From NCBI GenBank assembly GCA_012719135.1, contig JAAYAW010000078.1, positions 1-34,127 on the forward strand: a stretch of DNA of 34,127 nt. Direction: 5' to 3'. This document shows, piece by piece, positions 15,360 through 26,902 of this stretch (its first letter is position 1; each line of letters begins with the position of its first letter). Origin of the DNA: Chloroflexota bacterium. Lineage in GTDB: Bacteria > Chloroflexota > Anaerolineae > UBA1429. Made by a program: the position numbers and the translations under genes. Under the pieces are notes generated by a model. The model was not told the origin of the DNA and did not search any database. It saw only the letters and a list, made by a program, of their open reading frames with translations.

Positions 15360-15737
15360 TCACTCGCTTGCGCGTTTTACCGTCACAGTAGCGCCGCTCG
15401 GAACGCCCACAAAGACGCGGGAGTCGCCCTCAACATGCCCAAAGACGTTGACGGCGCTGGCTGGCCTGATGTCGTTCCCTCGGCTCATTGGGGTGCGGCC
15501 GAAAAAGATACAGAAGGCGTGCCCTGGCGCCCAGTAACCCAGATCACCCAACGCGACCACTTCCTTGGCATCCACGTCCTCATCGAGATGGACCGGGATG
15601 CCAAAGTAGATCTCGTCTCCCCAGGTGCTTGCTCGTGCCGAAATCGGCAGAGCCTCCCAGATGGCGTCTGCGGTGGACGAGTCATTAAGGACCGCCTCGG
15701 CGGTGGCGTTGCCTGCCGTGATGACTATACGACGCAT
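15360..15737 (-). CDS. Cyclophilin-like (TM1367-type) protein
   Basis: The 125-aa protein fits the cyclophilin-like beta-barrel family exemplified by T. maritima TM1367. Signature segments are an N-terminal RRIVITAG strand, NDSSTADAIWEALP, GDEIYFGIPV, LGDLGYWAPGHAFCIFFGRTPMS and the C-terminal VTVKRA. Family members have the cyclophilin fold but peptidyl-prolyl isomerase activity has not been established for them. GAGGAG lies seven bases before the ATG. It sits 50 bp after the Asp-box/ATPase gene and about 220 bp before the flavoprotein start; that 220-bp gap shows no clear RNA or terminator. Confidence 0.82.
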   Translation of the reverse strand: MRRIVITAGNATAEAVLNDSSTADAIWEALPISARASTWGDEIYFGIPVHLDEDVDAKEVVALGDLGYWAPGHAFCIFFGRTPMSRGNDIRPASAVNVFGHVEGDSRVFVGVPSGATVTVKRASE

Positions 15738-15787: not shown

Positions 15788-18700
15788 CTAGCTCAGCTCT
15801 TGTCCCTCGATCAACATCTCCGCGAGGCTATCGCGAAACCCCTGAGCGAGGCCGGAAGCACGCAGTATGCGCGGAAACGCTTCGGATGTGAACGTGTAGC
15901 GGCCTTCTTTCGCGGCAACGAGCGACGACAGCATAAGGCCATCCAGCGCGGCCGCGATCACGTCCTGAGGTATCCGCAGACCCAGCGCTTCCAGCGCCAG
16001 GCGCACCTGTTCGAGGATGAACGCCTCTCGCTGCGCCATTACCACAGAGATCAAGCGCTCTAGCGTGGTCGCGTTGCCCCAGATGATCTCAAAGAACAAC
16101 TCACGAAACTCGCTCGAGTGCTCGATGTCTTCCAAGTCCGACAGGCGCACCACGCGCTCTGCGCGTTCCGCCGCGCGCTCGACCAGCATCTGGCAGATGA
16201 CCTGCAGGATATTCGGGTGTCTGCCCGAAAGCAGCACGATCTCTGCCAACAACTGCTCGGGGTTTTCCATGGTTATGCCAAGCCCGGCCAGAGGCTCGCG
16301 CGCCAATCGCTGTGCTTCCTCCTGCGCCAGGTATCCGAGATGCAGTGTCCCACAAAACGAACGGAGCGGCAGATCATCGTCGTTCAACACGGCGTTCAGG
16401 ATGCGCTCTCCGCCCAGCACGAACCGGCACAGGCCTTCGTCGGAGAGCGATCGAAACACCCGAGTGAGTCGCCCTCCTTGAGCCCGGTCGAAGCGCATGA
16501 GGTTGTCCACCTCATCGAGCTCAAGCACGACCAGTCTATCGGGGTCATCACCGCGTGCCTTTAGCCGCAGGACCACACGCCGCAGCACGTCCATCGAAGC
16601 GCTCTCAACTGGGACTTGGCCGGCCAGAGACAGGGTCTTGAGGAACGAGGCATCGTCGGACACATGATGGCAATCGACGAACAGCGGCCAAAAGTCGCTG
16701 CTGTGCGAGAGAGAACGATGCAGCTGCCGGAGGAACGACGTTTTCCCGATCTTGCGTCCACCGAGTATGGCAAAGCTTCGGTCATTGAGGGCGCGAGCAA
16801 CGACTTTGACCTCGTACTCCCGACCGAAGAACATGCCGTGTGGTACCGGACCCGACTGCACGTACGGAGAGACCTGGGCCAGCGGGATGTTGCTTTGGAT
16901 GGTCTGGCCTAGCGCCAGGCCAGGATCATCGCTAGCCAGGATCTCCGCCAGTCTGTCACTATCGATCAGAATGAGCCCACCGGCCGATGGTGCCGCCTCC
17001 ATGCTGGCTGTCTGAGCCGCCGTGTCAGCGGGTTCCCCATCGATGACCAGCGCAAAGGGCGAAACGGCGCCCAGTCTGGCCGTCAGATCTCTGATGGCAC
17101 CGGCCTGGTCGGCCGCCGCGGTTCCGCTGGGAACGATCACCAGGGGAACGGCGGGAGGCAGATTCAGGCGTAACGGTGCGGTATCGAGCATGAACCCGAC
17201 CAGAGCGCCGGCGCGTTGCTCAGAGAGCAGGTCAAGCCCCAGCCGCTGGCCCAGGTCCCGTGCTCGCGTGGCATTCGCATCTCCAGTGGGCGCCAGCATG
17301 TCCTCGGGCCCCAGGCGCGATCTCAGTTCTGAGGCGGCGACAGGGGGCTCAGTACAGGGCTCAGCCTGTCCGGCCGTAGCCGGGGGGGCGGCGGTAGCGG
17401 ACTCCGGTTCGCGTGTGAACTCAGCCGCACCCGCGCTGGCCCGTCGAACTCGCCGACGCACTCGGGGCGCAAAGTGCAGCACGGCTCCAGCCAGGGCGAG
17501 CAGGCCGCCAAGAACGGCCAGAAGCCGGGATATGCTGTGCCCGAGGGCGGGCCTTTGTTCTATGCGATACAGCGCGCCTCTGCCATTGACGCGGTAGGCG
17601 AGGGCATTACCCGTGCCTGACGCGGGGACCAGTGCGCTCGTGCCGTCGGACGCCTCCAGTGTTGCCATCGTGCCCCCATCGGCGAGGAGGTCGACGCGGC
17701 CATCCACAGAAAGCAGTGCCTGCGGATCGTTGCCTGGCTGGCTTCCTGGGATCAGCAACGCCCGCTCGACCTCCACTGGCGTCCCCGCCGTGGCCGGCAT
17801 CGGCTCCCAGGCGCCTCGCGAACAGCGGCGCACTCGGCCCAACTGATCCAGGATGTAACCGTCACGGGAATCCGCCCAGGCCGCCTCGACTGCGTCAACG
17901 GCGGGCACTTTGGGGCACTGCTCTGCCCAATCGGGCCGAACCGATGGTGCTGCCGAATATACTGAGCCATCGGTCAGAGTCAGCACGATGCTCTCGGCGG
18001 AGGCCTGTAGCGTGACTGGGGCAGCGGAGGCGTAGCCCGGGCCGACCTGCAGCCATTCCGCTCCACCCTCGACATCGACGCACATGAGCTCGTCTGCCAG
18101 GAGGCACAGCACATCGCGATTCTGCGCGTCCCGGAAGTGCACCAGCGCAGTAGCCTCCGTGCCGAGGGAAGACGCCACAGGGAGAGCTTGCCACGTCTCG
18201 CCGCCGTCTGAGGCATGGAGGACCGCGCCGTCAGCACAAAGAGCAAAGACGGATGCGCCATCCTGGGCATCGACTGCGATGGAGAGGATCTCACCATGTC
18301 CTGCTCCCAGCGAACGAGGCAGGCTCCAGGATTGCCCTCCATCGGTGCTGTGACTAAAGCCCATGGGGGTGGATGCGTACAGCCGTTGGGGATCAGAGGG
18401 AGCGATGGTCAGCTCGTCTATCGACATAGCAGGCAGTGAGGTGATCCAGGGGCTCCAGGATCGCCCGCCATCGGTGGTCTCATACATGGATGTCTCCGTC
18501 GCTATGAGGCCAACCTGCCCGTAGCTGGCGGATGCAGCCAGAAGGGCCTCGCCATCCAGCAGGCCAAACAGTGCCTCGGGCTCTGTGTGGAGCAGCCACT
18601 CTGCGATGCGCTGGTCAGCCCAGGGCGATCCGGCGCCCGCCATGCTTAGCGAAGAACCGGCCGTCTGGGGCGCCGGCTGCCAGGACGTTCCACCATCCTC

Positions 18701-19432
18701 TGATGCGTGGATTCCGGAGGGCGCGCTCGCGAGCAAGGCCTTGCCCTGAGGCTCAAGCGTAGCCACCCAGTCTATGGGGCCTTCCGGTCCCTGCGATACC
18801 GATCGCCAGCTTGCTCCGCCATCTTCCGAGACGATCAGCCCGAGGCTGCAGCCGGCGATGAGGGAGTTCGGCTCAGCTGGATGCGGTGCGAGGGAGGTGA
18901 GCCGGCCGTACTCGGGTGATACAGGGATTGCGGACCAGCTTTCCCCACCGTCTGCGCTCTTCAGTAGTCCGTTGGGGGCCACGATATACAGGGCCCCTCC
19001 GGCGGGGCTCTGAACGAGCCCCAAATAGGCAGCAGCCCCGGGCGGTGCTGTCGCAACGGACCACGTCAGGCCGCCGTCTCTAGAGATCCCCAGCCCGAAC
19101 TCGCCCACGACGTAGGCGCTCTCGGGTAACGCCTGGTCGAACAACACGCTGATCACTGGCGAACGCCATGATTCCGGCAGGTCGCTCAGTTCCCACGTCC
19201 GCCCGCTGTCCCTTGTGGCATAGAGGCCCACGCTGGTGCTGACAAGCCGGACATCCGGATCGGCGGGATGAACCGCCAGCGCCAGCACGTGGGCGCCAGG
19301 CGGGTTCGCGAGGCGCTGCTCGCTGAGCCTGGGTGGGTTGCTCGCGATACAGAAGATCAGCGCGGCTATCAGGGCGATCACTGCGGCGCCAATCGCCAGC
19401 GCGGCTGGTCGCTTTGGGATTTCAGCTGGCAT
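15788..19432 (-). CDS. Transmembrane Asp-box propeller / STAND-like P-loop ATPase fusion
   Basis: This 1,214-aa protein has five parts. A membrane helix (about 11-31) is followed by a region to about 620 with eight Asp-box repeats, of S/T-x-D-x-G-x-x-W form, at 73, 117, 159, 202, 244, 319, 362 and 407; this suggests a BNR/sortilin-type beta-propeller. A second membrane helix (about 633-653) is followed by a basic RVRRRVRR stretch, placing the rest inside the cell. A Pro/Ala linker and a small alpha/beta region (about 720-860) lead to a P-loop ATPase beginning at FFGRE (868-872), with Walker A GGRKIGKT (891-898) and Walker B ending Asp973-Glu974. The C-terminus (about 1120-1195) looks like a winged helix. 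I infer an outside sensor controlling an inside nucleotide switch. The partner and ligand are unknown. It lies 105 bp after dnaE. Confidence 0.85.
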   Translation of the reverse strand: MPAEIPKRPAALAIGAAVIALIAALIFCIASNPPRLSEQRLANPPGAHVLALAVHPADPDVRLVSTSVGLYATRDSGRTWELSDLPESWRSPVISVLFDQALPESAYVVGEFGLGISRDGGLTWSVATAPPGAAAYLGLVQSPAGGALYIVAPNGLLKSADGGESWSAIPVSPEYGRLTSLAPHPAEPNSLIAGCSLGLIVSEDGGASWRSVSQGPEGPIDWVATLEPQGKALLASAPSGIHASEDGGTSWQPAPQTAGSSLSMAGAGSPWADQRIAEWLLHTEPEALFGLLDGEALLAASASYGQVGLIATETSMYETTDGGRSWSPWITSLPAMSIDELTIAPSDPQRLYASTPMGFSHSTDGGQSWSLPRSLGAGHGEILSIAVDAQDGASVFALCADGAVLHASDGGETWQALPVASSLGTEATALVHFRDAQNRDVLCLLADELMCVDVEGGAEWLQVGPGYASAAPVTLQASAESIVLTLTDGSVYSAAPSVRPDWAEQCPKVPAVDAVEAAWADSRDGYILDQLGRVRRCSRGAWEPMPATAGTPVEVERALLIPGSQPGNDPQALLSVDGRVDLLADGGTMATLEASDGTSALVPASGTGNALAYRVNGRGALYRIEQRPALGHSISRLLAVLGGLLALAGAVLHFAPRVRRRVRRASAGAAEFTREPESATAAPPATAGQAEPCTEPPVAASELRSRLGPEDMLAPTGDANATRARDLGQRLGLDLLSEQRAGALVGFMLDTAPLRLNLPPAVPLVIVPSGTAAADQAGAIRDLTARLGAVSPFALVIDGEPADTAAQTASMEAAPSAGGLILIDSDRLAEILASDDPGLALGQTIQSNIPLAQVSPYVQSGPVPHGMFFGREYEVKVVARALNDRSFAILGGRKIGKTSFLRQLHRSLSHSSDFWPLFVDCHHVSDDASFLKTLSLAGQVPVESASMDVLRRVVLRLKARGDDPDRLVVLELDEVDNLMRFDRAQGGRLTRVFRSLSDEGLCRFVLGGERILNAVLNDDDLPLRSFCGTLHLGYLAQEEAQRLAREPLAGLGITMENPEQLLAEIVLLSGRHPNILQVICQMLVERAAERAERVVRLSDLEDIEHSSEFRELFFEIIWGNATTLERLISVVMAQREAFILEQVRLALEALGLRIPQDVIAAALDGLMLSSLVAAKEGRYTFTSEAFPRILRASGLAQGFRDSLAEMLIEGQELS

Positions 19433-19537: not shown

Positions 19538-22500
19538 CTAGGTCCAGTCCACGTGGAGACGTCCCTGGCCTAACAGTCCGGCCAGCCGGGCCTCCAGTTG
19601 GGACGAGTAGCCCGTGGTGGCGGTCGGAAAGTCCACCATCACGCGCCCGAGAGGGGTTCTCAACCAGACCGAGAAAGGCACATCGCCCTGGTTCTGGCCC
19701 AGGATGTCCAGGACTTCGGAGGCGACGCGGGCATCGCCGCTGCCATCGCCGTTTAGCGGTATCTCTATGCGGATCCGGGCGGCGCGTCGGCGGTTGGACC
19801 TTTGCGCCGCCTCGCGGGGCAGTACGTAGGGAGAGATGCGATCCGCGACGAGCGAGACGCGATCGTTGCGGAGGTTGACTTTGCCCTCGATCAGTGAGAG
19901 TTGCCCACTGACCAGGGCATCTTTGGATGCCTCGTATGTGCGAGGGAATATCACCATCTCCATCGATCCGGTTAGATCCTCAACCTGAGCAAAGGCCATG
20001 GGATCGCCCTTGCGCGTGCTGATGACGCGAACGGCATCCAGAACGCCAGCAACCATCACCGGCTGGCCGTCCTGCGAAGCGTCCAGGTCGGCTATGGACG
20101 CAAGCCGCGGGTCGACATAGTTCGTCATCACATCGAGAGGATGTGAGGAGACAAAGCATCCAAGCAGTTCCTTCTCGTCTGCCAGTCGCTGTCGATGGCT
20201 CAACGGGGGGGCGGAATCGGCCAGCTTGAGCCGCACACTGGAGCTCTCGCTCATCAGTTGCGGGCTCAGGTCAAAGAGGCTGCGCTGCCCCACATCGCGA
20301 GCGGCGTGCACCTCCTGGCTGAGCGAGTACAACGGGTCCAGCGACGCGAGAATCGCGTTGCGTTCTCCCAGGCTATCGAGTAAGCCGGCTCGCACCAGGC
20401 ACTCGAGAGCCCGTTTGTTGACCTGTCGAAGGTCGACGCGGTTGGCGAGATCCTCCAGCCCCAGGAAGGGTTGGCTTCCGCGTGCCTTGACGAGAATCTC
20501 TGCGGGTCCATCCCCGACATTCTTGATGGCGCCCAGGCCGAACCGAATCGCCAGGCTCTCGGCTCCTTCGAGCCTGGCCCGCTCTTCGAGCGTATGCCAT
20601 TCTGCGGGCTCGACCTCAAAGTCGATGCCTGATGCGTTGATATCCGGTGGAAGCACTGGGATACTCAACCGGCGACACTCGCTCACAAAAAGGGACACCT
20701 TCTCAAGGTTGCCGCGCTCCACGGTGAGAAGGGCAGCCATGAACTCGGCTGGATAGTGGGCCTTCAGGTAGGCCGTCTGCAGGGTGATGATCGCATAAGC
20801 GGCCCCGTGCGACTTGTTAAAGCCATAGCTCGCAAAGGTCTCGATATCTCCAAAGATCGCCTCGGCGATACCGGCGTCGATCCCATTGGCTGCGCAGCCA
20901 TCGATGAACTTGGCGCGCTGCTGCTCCATGACCTTGGCCTTTTTCTTGCCCATGGCACGGCGCATCAGGTCCGCTTCTGAAGCCGTAAAGCCAGCGAGGT
21001 TCGAGGCGATCTGGATGACCTGTTCCTGGTACACGATGATGCCGTAGGTCTCTGCGAGTATCGGCTCCAGCAACGGGTGCGGATAGGTAACGGGCTTGCG
21101 ACCGAATTTGCGATCGATGTACTCGGGTATTGAAGCCATTGGACCCGGGCGGTAGAGCCCCAGAATCGCAATGATATCTGTGAACTCGGTCGGCTGCATG
21201 TCCCGCAGAACACGGCGCATGCCCTCACTCTCCACCTGGAAAACGCCGGTGACGTCCCCAGAGGATAGTAGGGCGTAGGAGTCTGGGTCATCCAGGGGGA
21301 TGCTCTCTTGAGATATGTCGATGCCTCGCGTCTTCCTGACCCAGCCAAAGGCCTTGTCCAGGACGGTCAGCGTCGAGAGGCCCAAGACATCGAGCTTGAG
21401 CAGGCCGATATCCTCCACGTCGGACATGCAATACTGTGATATCACGCCTTCGCCGCGCGGGGCGCGCTGAAGCGGGGTGTACTCAACCAGAGGTCGATCG
21501 GCAATCAGGACGCCGGCGGCATGCGTGGAAAGGTGACGCGAGAGGCCCTGTAGCTTTTGGGAGTAGTCTATCAGATCGCGTATGTAGGGCCGAGTCTCGT
21601 AGAGATCACGTAGCTCGGGCACCGTGTCCAGACCATCCTGAATGGTCTTTTTCGGACCCGATGGAATGAGTTTCGCCACGTGATCGACTTCGCTCAATGG
21701 GACGCCCAGGGCGCGACCCACATCGCGGATGGCACCACGGGCTACCATGGTCCCAAAGGTCGCGATCTGCGATGTGCGATCTTCTCCGTACCGAGACGTC
21801 AGGTAGTCGATCACCTCCTGGCGACGGTCTTCGGGGTAATCGAGATCAATATCGGGCATCGTGATACGCCCAGGGTTCAGGAAGCGCTCAAAGATCAGGC
21901 CCAGGCTCAGTGGCTCGATATCGGTAATCCCCAGAGCATAGGCGACCAGACTGCTCGCGCCAGAGCCTCGTCCCGGACCGACAAGCATCTTGGCCTCTTG
22001 CTTGGCCCAGCGAACCAGGTCTTCGTTGATTAGAAAGTACTCGTCAAACCCCATGTCATGGATAACGCCCAACTCGTAATCCAGGCGGGCCTGTATGTCG
22101 GGCGTAATATCGCTGTAGCGACGCTTCAAGCCCTCCAGGCAGAGGTTCCTCAGGTAGGTTTCGGCTGTGCAGGCCTCGGGCACCTCGAACTTGGGCAGGT
22201 GATACCCCTGAAAGCCCGGGTCAAAGTCGCACTGCTCCGCAACGAGCAGCGTGTTCTCCACCGCTTCGGGGTAGGCTGCCATGACGGTGGACATCTCCTC
22301 GGCGGACATGAGGTAATAGTCATCGCTCCCCATGCGCATCCGTTCGGGATCCGAGACAGTCGTGTTGGTCTGCATCGCGAGCAGGAGGTCCTGCGCAGAC
22401 GCATCCTCTCGCATGGTATAGTGGACGTCGTTGGTGGCCACGCAACGCAGGCCAACCTGCCGAGCAAGCTCGACCAGTTGCACGTTGATGGCGTCCAGTT

Positions 22501-23047
22501 CCGGCACGCCGGCATGTCGTTGGAGTTCCACAAAGTACCGATCGCGTCCGAAAAGGTCCTTGAACCACTCCATCGTCTCGCGGGCCTGATCAAGCTGGCC
22601 TTCTCTGACCAGCGACGAGATCTGCCCGGAGAGGCATCCAGATAGGCAGATCAGGCCTTCGCTGTGCTCGGCCAGGAGTTCTCTATCGATTCGCGGCCTA
22701 TAGTAAAAGCCCTCCAGATTGGCGACAGTAACCAGCTTCAGGAGGTTCTGATAACCTGTGGCGTTCGCTGCCAGCAACACGAGGTGGTAGGAACGACCGT
22801 CAAGCCGCGCTTCTTTCTGGAACAGACGGCGCCTCGCCTGATACACCTCACAGCCAAAGATCGGCTTGATCCCGGCTGACTGAGCCGCATGATGGAATCT
22901 GATGGTTCCGTACATCTGGCCGTGATCCGTCAGGGCCAGTGCGGGCATACCCAGGTCACGGGCACGGCGACACAGGTCGGGCAGGCGTGCCAGGCCATCG
23001 AGGAGGGAGTACTCGCTGTGGACGTGCAGATGAACAAAGGAACCCAC
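19538..23047 (-). CDS. dnaE: DNA polymerase III alpha subunit
   Basis: The 1,169-aa replicative polymerase starts with a PHP domain (HLHVHSEYSLLDG at 6-18, DHGQMYG at 41-47), has the catalytic PDIDLD with Asp401 and Asp403 (same numbering as E. coli DnaE), a helix-hairpin-helix region and a C-terminal OB-fold (about 980-1070). Length is normal for DnaE1. The PHP metal-ligand pattern looks intact, so intrinsic exonuclease activity is possible. GTG 23047 is chosen: AGGAGG lies five bases upstream and the PHP domain begins at once. The longer frame to 23218 runs through the promoter and does not resemble DnaE. Confidence 0.96.
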   Translation of the reverse strand: MGSFVHLHVHSEYSLLDGLARLPDLCRRARDLGMPALALTDHGQMYGTIRFHHAAQSAGIKPIFGCEVYQARRRLFQKEARLDGRSYHLVLLAANATGYQNLLKLVTVANLEGFYYRPRIDRELLAEHSEGLICLSGCLSGQISSLVREGQLDQARETMEWFKDLFGRDRYFVELQRHAGVPELDAINVQLVELARQVGLRCVATNDVHYTMREDASAQDLLLAMQTNTTVSDPERMRMGSDDYYLMSAEEMSTVMAAYPEAVENTLLVAEQCDFDPGFQGYHLPKFEVPEACTAETYLRNLCLEGLKRRYSDITPDIQARLDYELGVIHDMGFDEYFLINEDLVRWAKQEAKMLVGPGRGSGASSLVAYALGITDIEPLSLGLIFERFLNPGRITMPDIDLDYPEDRRQEVIDYLTSRYGEDRTSQIATFGTMVARGAIRDVGRALGVPLSEVDHVAKLIPSGPKKTIQDGLDTVPELRDLYETRPYIRDLIDYSQKLQGLSRHLSTHAAGVLIADRPLVEYTPLQRAPRGEGVISQYCMSDVEDIGLLKLDVLGLSTLTVLDKAFGWVRKTRGIDISQESIPLDDPDSYALLSSGDVTGVFQVESEGMRRVLRDMQPTEFTDIIAILGLYRPGPMASIPEYIDRKFGRKPVTYPHPLLEPILAETYGIIVYQEQVIQIASNLAGFTASEADLMRRAMGKKKAKVMEQQRAKFIDGCAANGIDAGIAEAIFGDIETFASYGFNKSHGAAYAIITLQTAYLKAHYPAEFMAALLTVERGNLEKVSLFVSECRRLSIPVLPPDINASGIDFEVEPAEWHTLEERARLEGAESLAIRFGLGAIKNVGDGPAEILVKARGSQPFLGLEDLANRVDLRQVNKRALECLVRAGLLDSLGERNAILASLDPLYSLSQEVHAARDVGQRSLFDLSPQLMSESSSVRLKLADSAPPLSHRQRLADEKELLGCFVSSHPLDVMTNYVDPRLASIADLDASQDGQPVMVAGVLDAVRVISTRKGDPMAFAQVEDLTGSMEMVIFPRTYEASKDALVSGQLSLIEGKVNLRNDRVSLVADRISPYVLPREAAQRSNRRRAARIRIEIPLNGDGSGDARVASEVLDILGQNQGDVPFSVWLRTPLGRVMVDFPTATTGYSSQLEARLAGLLGQGRLHVDWT

Positions 23048-23164
23048 CAAGACCTCCTGAACGCGGTGGTAGACTGGAACGTGGCTGGGATCGCCATGCG
23101 GACGGCGAGACAAAGCTCGGGCTCGGCCCTCCCAAGGCCCGGTGTGGCCGACAGCGCCAAAGGC

Positions 23165-23192
23165 ATTGTAACACACCACGCACGGCCGTAAA
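23165..23192 (-). promoter_or_regulatory. Likely promoter for dnaE
   Basis: On the minus strand TTTACG (23192-23187) and TACAAT (23170-23165) are 16 bases apart. Transcription would start near 23158 and give a leader of about 110 nt before GTG 23047. The rest of the 310-bp gap between dnaE and the tRNA holds the tRNA terminator and an inverted repeat; no small gene is supported there. Confidence 0.5.
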
Positions 23193-23256
23193 GCCTGGGC
23201 GCAGACGACCACCCACAACGGCGCGGGCGACCGGGGGCATTCCCATGCTCAGGTAT

Positions 23257-23526: not shown

Positions 23527-25563
23527 ATGCTGAGGCCAAAGCTCGTTCGATCGGCGGCCACCATCCACGGGTTGGCAACACTGCTGATCCTGGCTTCCGG
23601 TGTTGCCTGCAGGCCACCCTCTCCGGAGGTGGCGCAGGCCGTTCTTCCTACCCGTTCAGCGACCCCATGCGTTGCCCACCTGGACGTGAGTGCCATTCCG
23701 GCCGGGGCGGCCATCATCGTGGATGGCGTCTATGCGGCTGAGGCCCCGGCGCGAGTTGCCGTCTCCCCTGGCGACCACTCGGTGGAACTGGTGGCGGACG
23801 GCTATGCGTCCTATCGCATGACCGCAGAGTTGGCTTGTGGGGCGAGCGAAGATGTGTCCGTTGAGATGTACGACAACACCCCGCCGTCGCTCGTTGTGGA
23901 GGAGCTTCCGTCGAGTGTGTACTCGGGCGATGGCCTAAAGGTTACCGCGACAAGCTCGGATAACAGCCAGGTTGCGAGTATGGCGCTCTTTATCGATGAT
24001 CAGATGATCTTCCAGCTGCAGGGGGATAGGCTCCGGCATAACCTCGATACGCGGGCGCTTGCGTTGGGCGAACACGTTCTGCGCATCGAGGCGCTGGACG
24101 TGGCGGGTAACGCTCGGGATGCCAGAGTGGCGTTCGCCATTCAGGGCGACGAGGCGCCTCGTTATGCTGTGGAGCCTACGGCGACAACCGCGGCTACGTC
24201 GGAGCGCGTGGCAACGGTCGCTCCCGTGCCCTTGCCAACGGAGACGTCCGCCCCTGCTGCAACTCCTTCGCTAACGCCTCTCGCTGCTGTTGCTGTGTAC
24301 GAGGACGAACTCTCGATCCTGGTGGATGACTACCTTCCCGCCCTCTACACCGATGTCGAGCGCACGGGGCAGCCCTATCCGTTGGTGAATCACGATCTGG
24401 TGGGACCGCCATCCTATCGGACGTTTCGTACGATCATCCTGCAGAACCAGTACTTGGAGATCGTGATACTCCCGGAGATGGGCGGGCGCATCTACCAGTG
24501 CCGGTTTCTGCCGACGAACCAGCCGCTCTTGTACAACAGCCGCGTGGCCAAGGTAACCAGATGGGGGCCTACGGATCAGGGTTGGTGGCTCGCGCTGGGG
24601 GGCATGGAGTTCGCTCTGCCAGTCGAGGAGCACGGATACCTGACGGCTCAACCGTGGGATGCCTCCGTGAGTCGGCAGCCAGATGGAAGTGCCACCGTCG
24701 CGCTTCAGGTTCAGGAAGAAACGCGGGGGATACTGGCCCGAGTGGAGGTCACGCTAAAGCCCGGGGAGGCAGCGATACGGTTACGGACGCAGCTGCGCAA
24801 CACCACCGGCGCCGAACAGGTCTTTCAGTATTGGACCAACGCGATGCTCTCTCCCGGCAGACACGGCGTCGGCCCTGAGTTGAGTATCGCCTTTCCGGCC
24901 GATCAGGTAGTCATCCACAGTCGAGGCGATACCAGCCTGCCAAGCGATGGAGCCACCATGCCGTGGCCACTATACGCTGGCCGGGATATGAGCGCCTACG
25001 GCGAGTGGCGCGACTGGCTGGGGTTCTTTGGCCCCGCACGCACGGCGCCCTTTATGGCCGTATACGATCGAGCCACTCAGATCGGCATGGTCCAGGCCAC
25101 AGCCGAGGGCATACTGCCCGGGGCCAAGATCTTTGGCTTTGGGAGAGAGTTCAACAACGACACGTTCAGCGAAGATGGCGCGCAGTATGTCGAGATGTGG
25201 TCCGGGGTTGCGCCTACCTTCTCGCAGGACGTCTCTCTGCCCGAGGGAGGGGTCCTCTCATGGGATGAGATCTGGTATGTGGTCGCGCAGAGCGACGGTG
25301 TCACGTTCGCCAATCAGAACGCTTCTCTGTATGCTTGGCGCGATGGTGAAGTGCTCCGGCTCACGGTGGCCTCCCCGGCGGATCACCGGTGGCGCTTGGT
25401 TATCACCCAGGGTGGCACGCCGCTGGGAGATGAGGTGTTTGATGTCCAGCCGGGCACCCCGTTCCGCTTTTCCGCTGATTTCCCTGGAGGCGGTTCTGGC
25501 GAACCAGTGCACATCGAGATCAGGGATCTAGCGGACAACTCCATCCTCGAGTACGTCTACTAG
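23527..25563 (+). CDS. Surface lipoprotein-like protein with PEGA, Ig-like and DUF5107-type domains
   Basis: The 678-aa protein has an N-terminal signal (1-27) ending in LASGVAC, with Cys28 as a possible lipidated residue, though the lipobox is atypical. Residues about 51-100 match a PEGA domain (IPAGAAIIVDG, GDHSVELVADGYASY). Residues about 118-210 look like an Ig/cadherin-type fold ending VAGNARDARV. A Thr/Pro/Ala linker follows to about 260. The remainder resembles DUF5107, with the LEIVILPEMGGRIYQCRF segment typical of galactose-mutarotase-like beta-sandwich folds. It is probably exported and may bind surface carbohydrate. It leads a likely operon, with the next gene 19 bases on. Confidence 0.75.
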   Translation: MLRPKLVRSAATIHGLATLLILASGVACRPPSPEVAQAVLPTRSATPCVAHLDVSAIPAGAAIIVDGVYAAEAPARVAVSPGDHSVELVADGYASYRMTAELACGASEDVSVEMYDNTPPSLVVEELPSSVYSGDGLKVTATSSDNSQVASMALFIDDQMIFQLQGDRLRHNLDTRALALGEHVLRIEALDVAGNARDARVAFAIQGDEAPRYAVEPTATTAATSERVATVAPVPLPTETSAPAATPSLTPLAAVAVYEDELSILVDDYLPALYTDVERTGQPYPLVNHDLVGPPSYRTFRTIILQNQYLEIVILPEMGGRIYQCRFLPTNQPLLYNSRVAKVTRWGPTDQGWWLALGGMEFALPVEEHGYLTAQPWDASVSRQPDGSATVALQVQEETRGILARVEVTLKPGEAAIRLRTQLRNTTGAEQVFQYWTNAMLSPGRHGVGPELSIAFPADQVVIHSRGDTSLPSDGATMPWPLYAGRDMSAYGEWRDWLGFFGPARTAPFMAVYDRATQIGMVQATAEGILPGAKIFGFGREFNNDTFSEDGAQYVEMWSGVAPTFSQDVSLPEGGVLSWDEIWYVVAQSDGVTFANQNASLYAWRDGEVLRLTVASPADHRWRLVITQGGTPLGDEVFDVQPGTPFRFSADFPGGGSGEPVHIEIRDLADNSILEYVY

Positions 25564-25582
25564 AATACGCCAAGGAGCATGC

Positions 25583-26902
25583 ATGAACTGTCCCCGTTGC
25601 GGCAATCCCCTGGAGACAGAGGCAGCGTTCTGTTCCATCTGTGGGCTCAAGATTGCACAGGCTACTCGCTCGCTGGTCGAAATCGCTGGCGAACCCGAGG
25701 CCGTGGCCGGCCCTGCCCAGGGACGCAAGCAGGGATGCCGGACAACACTCACCGTTGTCGGTGTTGCGCTGGCTGTGGTGCTGCTGGTGGGCCTGCTGAT
25801 TGCCGGGGCCGTTTACCTGGGCCTTCGCGATCGCGAGTCCGCGCAAGCCAACCAGGCGCAGAGCTACTTTGAGCAGGGCGAGGGGTATTTCGCAGACGAC
25901 CAGTACGAACTCGCGATCGCTGCGTATGACCAGGCGCTCCTGCTGGATCCTGATCATCCGGCGGCCAGCAGCAGGCGATCAGCGGCTCAGGCGATGCTGG
26001 ATGCAGGACCCACGGACACGCCGGCTCTGCAGGAGGCTACGATCGAGGCCCTGTGGCAGGAGCACCAACAGATGGTGGAGCTGGAGGAGTGGGCCCGCGT
26101 GCTCGAGACGGGGGAAGATATCATTCTGCGTGACCCCAGCTACCGCAGGACAGAGCTGGATGACCACCTCTTCAGGGCGTTCATGGGCTTGGCCAGAGAG
26201 AGCATCGCGGCGGACAGACCGGAGGAGGCTCTACGCTACCTTGATAGGGCCCTGTCCATTGTTCCACAGAGCCCTGAAGCAGTGCATCTTCAGAACTTGA
26301 CGAGCCTGTACCTGGATGGTATGCGCTTCTATGGAGCGGATTGGCCCAGTGCCATCGATCGCCTTGCTGCGCTCTATGCGGTGGACCCCAACTATAAGGA
26401 TGCGGCTGATCGCCTGCTTTCGGCCTATATCTCCTATGCGCAGCAACTGGAAACCGAGAGCAAATGGTGTGAAGCGGCCGCGCAGTATGGCCGAGCAATG
26501 GAGATCTCATCCGATAGCCCCCTCGTAGCCCTGCGTCAGAATGCAGAGGAGGAGTGCACGCTCGTAGGCGGGACAGCCACACCGGAAGGCCCTACCGAAA
26601 TCCCGTCTGGTTCCTATGCAGGCAGAGAGCTGCAGCCTGAAGCGATCGGAAGCGACAAAATGTCCATCCACGGTCACGTCTTTGACTCGTCGGGTGAGCC
26701 CGTCGCTGGTGCTCGCGTCGAGATCAAGGCCTGGGATTTCACCGCCTATGCAGTCACAGACGGATCCGGGCAGTTCTCCTTTGATGGGCTGGCCAACGCA
26801 GCCCCCTACACGCTGACACTCGTGGATCTGACATCCCTCCCAATCCAGGTTGAGACGGAGTGGGGAAGGCTTAGCTGGGTCGTGTTTGAGCAGGCTCAAT
26901 AG
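25583..26902 (+). CDS. Zinc-ribbon / TM / TPR protein with a C-terminal carboxypeptidase-regulatory-like domain
   Basis: The 439-aa protein begins with a zinc ribbon (Cys3, Cys6, Cys17, Cys20), then a basic linker and one membrane helix (about 56-80). Tetratricopeptide-like helices follow (FEQGEGYFADDQYELAIAAY and repeats to about 330), then a short low-complexity linker. A beta-sandwich at about 360-420 (GHVFDSSGEPVAGARVEI, TDGSGQFSFDGL) matches carboxypeptidase-regulatory-like domains. The topology places the ribbon inside and the TPR and beta domain outside. It may be a scaffold at the envelope. AAGGAG lies five bases before ATG 25583. Function unknown. Confidence 0.78.
   Translation: MNCPRCGNPLETEAAFCSICGLKIAQATRSLVEIAGEPEAVAGPAQGRKQGCRTTLTVVGVALAVVLLVGLLIAGAVYLGLRDRESAQANQAQSYFEQGEGYFADDQYELAIAAYDQALLLDPDHPAASSRRSAAQAMLDAGPTDTPALQEATIEALWQEHQQMVELEEWARVLETGEDIILRDPSYRRTELDDHLFRAFMGLARESIAADRPEEALRYLDRALSIVPQSPEAVHLQNLTSLYLDGMRFYGADWPSAIDRLAALYAVDPNYKDAADRLLSAYISYAQQLETESKWCEAAAQYGRAMEISSDSPLVALRQNAEEECTLVGGTATPEGPTEIPSGSYAGRELQPEAIGSDKMSIHGHVFDSSGEPVAGARVEIKAWDFTAYAVTDGSGQFSFDGLANAAPYTLTLVDLTSLPIQVETEWGRLSWVVFEQAQ

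Follow-up and report, generated by a model that had tools for sequence, protein, structure and literature searches.

A membrane-spanning Asp-box propeller protein with a STAND-type ATPase in Anaerolineae, a candidate sensor of a two-ATPase switch

The window, a 34,127-nucleotide stretch of DNA from a Chloroflexota bacterium, contains an intact open reading frame (gene A, ATG start) for a protein of 1,214 amino acids in which two tandem Asp-box propellers are joined across a membrane to a STAND-type ATPase and a winged helix. The preliminary description had proposed that a single chain combines an Asp-box propeller, a second membrane helix, a STAND-type ATPase and a winged helix, and the sequence, a structure model, and at least 25 related proteins agree on this plan. 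The main new result came from the gene neighbors of A, namely its pairing with a second ATPase of the AAA_35 family. We regard it as an evenly balanced proposition that A acts as the transmembrane sensor in a modular switch of two STAND proteins, which probably controls effectors directed against the cell itself. The features are listed in Table 1.

Table 1. Position of gene A, its parts, the neighboring dnaE, and examples of B proteins with an outer domain
Feature	Position	Strand	Remarks
Gene A	15788..19432	-	TM1, tandem Asp-box propellers, TM2, pseudo-nuclease-like domain, STAND-like ATPase, winged helix
TM1 / signal anchor	19346..19402	-	Residues 11-29
Two tandem Asp-box beta-propellers	17558..19330	-	Residues ~35-625
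TM2	17468..17524	-	Residues 637-655; basic flank RVRRRVRR directly after
Alpha/beta domain, PD-(D/E)XK-like topology, without catalytic residues	16868..17332	-	Residues ~701-855
STAND-like P-loop ATPase	16133..16837	-	Residues ~866-1100
Walker A	16739..16762	-	Residues 891-898
Walker B acidic pair D973-E974	16511..16516	-	
Winged-helix domain	15818..16132	-	Residues ~1101-1205
dnaE (DNA polymerase III alpha)	19538..23218	-	Listed ORF extended 5'; 105 bp upstream of A, same strand
B proteins with ~130-aa outer domain	L055 6373-8037, L058 6323-8020, L061 9956-11668, others		

In the structure model of residues 15-1214 (mean pLDDT 75), the propellers span model residues 18-612; TM2 forms a long helix, and both the ATPase (pLDDT mostly >90) and the winged helix are present. 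Hydropathy analysis gave exactly two transmembrane segments, the second of which lies at the corresponding place in nearly all of the at least 25 propeller-bearing relatives, counting the window protein. Both membrane helices and the basic inner flank of the second, as originally described, were recovered. Across an alignment of 24 proteins, 76 Lys and Arg residues were counted in the 15 positions following TM2, versus 38 before it; therefore, the C-terminal part of A should be inside. Read from the sequences, several relatives have a signal peptide with an AxA-like motif at its end.

Seven canonical Asp-boxes start at residues 73, 117, 159, 202, 244, 319, and 362, spaced mostly by 42-44 residues, and are followed by a degenerate eighth, ASDGGETW. 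Since shuffled copies of the protein contained 0.005 Asp-boxes on average and at most one, these repeats cannot be due to chance. The eight repeats reported initially were thus found, one of them in degenerate form, but the extent of about 340 residues did not hold: according to sequence and model, the outer region is two tandem Asp-box propellers of about 590 residues, with the repeated motif seen in the sequence and the propeller fold in the model. Pfam matches above the cut-offs in this outer region were PSII_BNR, Sortilin-Vps10, and BNR. WD40 propellers (G-beta and others) filled the VIA list for the full-length model and were uninformative on function.

The top Foldseek matches of the model were GH74 xyloglucanases, which themselves have tandem Asp-box propellers, and the profile of the A family could be aligned with a GH74 chain from position 32 to 643, across both propellers (whole-sequence E 2e-33). 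Sensor histidine kinases with propellers also matched this profile, weakly; no histidine kinase domain was found in the gene A protein by the domain scan. We take the Asp of the TDIGG motif in the N-terminal propeller to be the catalytic residue of GH74 enzymes. In the alignment, this position is occupied by Ser67 in the window protein and by Asp in only 4 of 24 proteins, and because this residue is not conserved, A was rejected as a GH74 enzyme; it differs from them also in that its propellers are membrane anchored. The propellers are more variable than the ATPase (mean pairwise identity 36% versus 55%). A relative of A at locus L074 (8148-11063, reverse strand) has propeller blades near-identical to one another, suggesting recent blade amplification in the sensor.

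Between TM2 and the ATPase, the model places a part absent from the first description, which is a separate alpha/beta fold. Modeled alone (pLDDT 78), it shows the order helix-strand-strand-strand-helix-strand, which fits the topology of PD-(D/E)XK nucleases. VIA returned many folds of this type, the best being FokI (Z 7.9, none reaching 8) and others including EndoMS, RPB5, Shedu, HindIII, Card1, and Can2, along with some unrelated entries (acetyl-CoA carboxylase). Foldseek found no match to this domain with E below 1e-3, and its retroviral-integrase-type entries (TM-score ~0.23) were taken as noise. The alignment of relatives contained no conserved D...(D/E)xK motif, and strands 2 and 3 lacked conserved acidic residues. 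Judging from this alignment and the model, the domain is probably an inactive nuclease-like adaptor.

The Walker A motif and the acidic pair Asp973-Glu974 were confirmed where they had been placed before; the protein has the Walker A and hhhhDE-type Walker B motifs of STAND NTPases, with key residues invariant in 40 relatives. Pfam recognized AAA_22 at residues 885-1015 (28.7 bits, cut-off 27). The assignment as a STAND-like ATPase agrees with a sequence match to the archaeal STAND-type ATPase 2FNA (E 1.7e-12) and a structural match to another, 2QEN (PABY2304; Z 23.4, 314 of 350 residues aligned, rmsd 3.6). The latter alignment extends through the winged helix, previously considered probable, and the C-terminal helical and winged-helix domains of A are arranged as in 2QEN. 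The P-loop core, helical domain, and winged helix are common to A and these archaeal proteins, which as solved comprise 350-357 amino acids without propellers or transmembrane helices, whereas A has both. For nSTAND1 (PF20703), the window protein scored 17.4 bits, below the Pfam cut-off of 27.1, and one distant relative of A scored 31.0.

With the inner part of A as the query and a threshold of E 1e-15, 50 of 396 genomes of the class gave a match, which was strong in about 30. The propeller-TM-STAND plan, with several Asp-boxes, recurs in at least 25 proteins from Anaerolineae, counting that of the window. A single-protein pattern scan of genome contigs yielded only one full-length relative because such a scan reaches close relatives only. 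The outer part is exchangeable in some A proteins: TIR domains occupy the position of the propellers in A proteins from another class of the phylum, and two EAD7 matches replace them in another A. Domains of the effector-associated type are known from bacterial conflict systems (PMC8195603). No match of A to PADLOC anti-phage defense models was found at E 0.01, and on this ground a known defense family was rejected.

Gene B, encoding the second STAND-like ATPase (AAA_35), follows A on the same strand in 21 related loci, and this adjacency is typical of most relatives outside the family of the window organism. In 20 of the 21 loci, the B match starts -29 to +26 bp from the stop codon of A; at L074 it starts 557 bp after it, and the B frame itself still reaches the stop. 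A and, with few exceptions, the B proteins of these pairs retain an intact Walker A. The C-terminal modules of B vary, comprising two transmembrane helices with an outer domain, CHAT (L066), Cap12/TIR-like (L053), and caspase. Most adjacent B proteins of Anaerolineae have two transmembrane helices around the outer domain and no known enzyme. This domain of about 130 amino acids carries the conserved motif YNPF ... FYS[GA]F and was not named by Pfam in the B proteins scanned. In the other Chloroflexota class, the TIR-bearing A is paired with a B containing a caspase domain (C14), the two frames overlapping by 7 bp. Genes for TIR, nuclease-like, and STAND domains overlapping an AAA_35-caspase gene were seen at L116 (5811-10684), L144 (230-5148), and L145 (5572-10484); by their domain content, these pairs are a candidate compact death or defense operon.

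At the window locus, gene B is absent next to A. AAA_35 was matched only once in the genome, by a CHAT-AAA_35 fusion that is encoded on a different contig (C55, ~16.4-18.6 kb), unlinked to A, has the CHAT His and Cys motifs, and is present in most members of the taxonomic family. It matched PADLOC SAVED_CHAT and BovA only over the CHAT domain. With its ATPase part as a query, 30 of the same 396 genomes matched at E 1e-30. B was present in 25 of the 30 genomes with strong A, and 5 genomes had B without strong A (Fisher p 7e-30, a statistic that ignores shared ancestry). The exceptions were four genomes with B and no A match at all and five with strong A in which B was undetected. Literature searches gave nothing on PF14516 and only unrelated papers for the name AAA_35.

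The proposed two-STAND switch is favored by the conserved plan of A, the coupling of B to its stop codon, their co-occurrence, the effector-type modules on B and A variants, the matches of the ATPase to 2FNA and 2QEN, the greater variability of the propellers, and the CHAT motifs of the B in this genome. The non-adjacent B of the window genome, the genomes with only one of the two genes, the prevalence of adjacent B proteins with membrane helices and no known enzyme, the signaling-type partners of distant relatives, and signs of vertical inheritance count against it, so that we hold it at about even probability. Since the ATPase next to its relatives often bears protein-cutting, TIR-type, or membrane modules, A looks like a surface receptor for an alarm or self-destruct switch. 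A ligand, such as a glycan or surface protein, would bind to the outer propellers and alter TM2 and the pseudo-nuclease linker; the ATPase of A would then exchange nucleotide and assemble jointly with B, and this assembly would switch on the C-terminal module of B. The earlier proposal that binding outside changes nucleotide state or oligomerization inside would fit this scheme. In the window genome, the partner would be the unlinked CHAT-AAA_35 protein, and because it carries CHAT, the outcome could be regulated proteolysis, perhaps cell death or defense. The winged helix, suggested earlier as the output, is less likely to have this role because the gene directly downstream in relatives encodes the second ATPase with death-type or membrane modules.

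A more specific version, which we consider only tentatively, is a transmembrane immune or death receptor whose double propellers would recognize a foreign or self surface molecule, with a two-STAND hetero-oligomer firing a caspase-like, TIR-like, or membrane effector, in functional terms a membrane-anchored counterpart of the Apaf-1 apoptosome. A similarly modest probability is given to A regulating ordinary physiology by sensing extracellular polysaccharide or the envelope state and signaling through the winged helix to DNA, like MalT, or to kinases and phosphatases. The presence of the winged helix, the closeness of the propellers to polysaccharide-binding GH74 enzymes, and the propeller-bearing histidine kinases matching the family profile are consistent with such regulation. 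So are distant A relatives paired with proteins that look, from their sequences, like GAF, histidine kinase, or SpoIIE-like (PP2C-like) phosphatase proteins, which points to signaling rather than death, and two relatives near Ser/Thr kinase genes. However, a winged helix is standard in such ATPases and here would be membrane held, and what is conserved next to A is not a target operon but an ATPase bearing CHAT, TIR-like, caspase, or transmembrane modules. If A were a Ycf48-like machine for envelope assembly or chaperoning, driven by the inner ATPase, instead of a switch, the PSII_BNR/Ycf48 matches would be explained, but Ycf48 itself is a single propeller without an ATPase, and the STAND type of the ATPase and the effector-type domains of co-encoded partners and variants make this very improbable.

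Gene order raises the question of whether A has a housekeeping role in DNA replication or cell growth. A is adjacent to and co-directional with dnaE in 12 loci, including the window and L067, from three families (f1, f42, and f8), and no terminator-like site was found in the gap between the two genes in the window; at L064 and L065, the start of A overlaps the stop of dnaE by 4 bp. The A tree, midpoint rooted and with modest support on some inner branches, largely follows taxonomy, and together with the dnaE linkage this suggests vertical, housekeeping-like inheritance. A replication role is nevertheless unlikely: in family f39 and others, A lies away from dnaE and is coupled to B instead, and several nearly complete f1 genomes lack A. 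At L068 and L069, dnaE, A, and B stand in a row; because these loci diverge immediately outside both the dnaE-linked and the B-linked groups, the ancestral order may have been dnaE-A-B. Elsewhere in the window, a cyclophilin-like protein (PF04126, E 2e-42; 15360-15737, reverse strand) is encoded downstream of A, and a PEGA/Big_7/DUF5107 protein followed by a zinc-ribbon, TPR, CarboxypepD_reg protein (23527-26902, forward strand) lies divergent from tRNA-Thr and dnaE.

Several known systems resemble A or the A-B pair in part. Apaf-1 is a STAND ATPase with two sensor propellers upstream of a caspase; these are WD40 rather than Asp-box propellers, the protein is cytosolic and of another STAND subfamily, and the likeness is a functional analogy without close kinship. 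Hybrid two-component sensors of Bacteroides (3OTT, 4A2L) share with A an extracytoplasmic propeller sensor, a transmembrane helix, and a cytoplasmic signaling part, but their output is a histidine kinase and their propellers are of another type. The nSTAND2 conflict operon consists of two adjacent STAND genes with variable effectors, mostly GT4 or HEPN, and a predicted hetero-multimer in which one NTPase is eroded (PMC8195603). Adjacent STAND genes, found at the 21 related loci and absent at the window locus, and variable effectors are common to A-B pairs; the latter differ in retaining Walker A in both members of nearly all pairs, in B being AAA_35, and in A being a transmembrane propeller receptor. 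Identity with nSTAND2 was rejected because both ATPases keep Walker A.

Among published concepts, those nearest to A and B in the texts searched are the STAND systems, ternary and two-gene, that Kaur and colleagues described (PMC7159879, PMC8195603); STAND sensors diversified by DGR are a further related one (PMC10907252). In the literature searched, which includes few subscription papers, no description of an Asp-box propeller-TM-STAND protein was found, consistent with the initial impression that no described system joins these parts across a membrane, and A looks like a type of bacterial surface receptor that has not been reported before. In the same literature, immune and death switches of the STAND type mostly sense inside the cell. 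A conserved family that combines an outer sensor and an inner STAND switch in a single chain, and has a partner ATPase bearing effectors, would show how surface contact triggers bacterial cell-fate decisions, and A-B is a two-protein system amenable to testing in a laboratory host.
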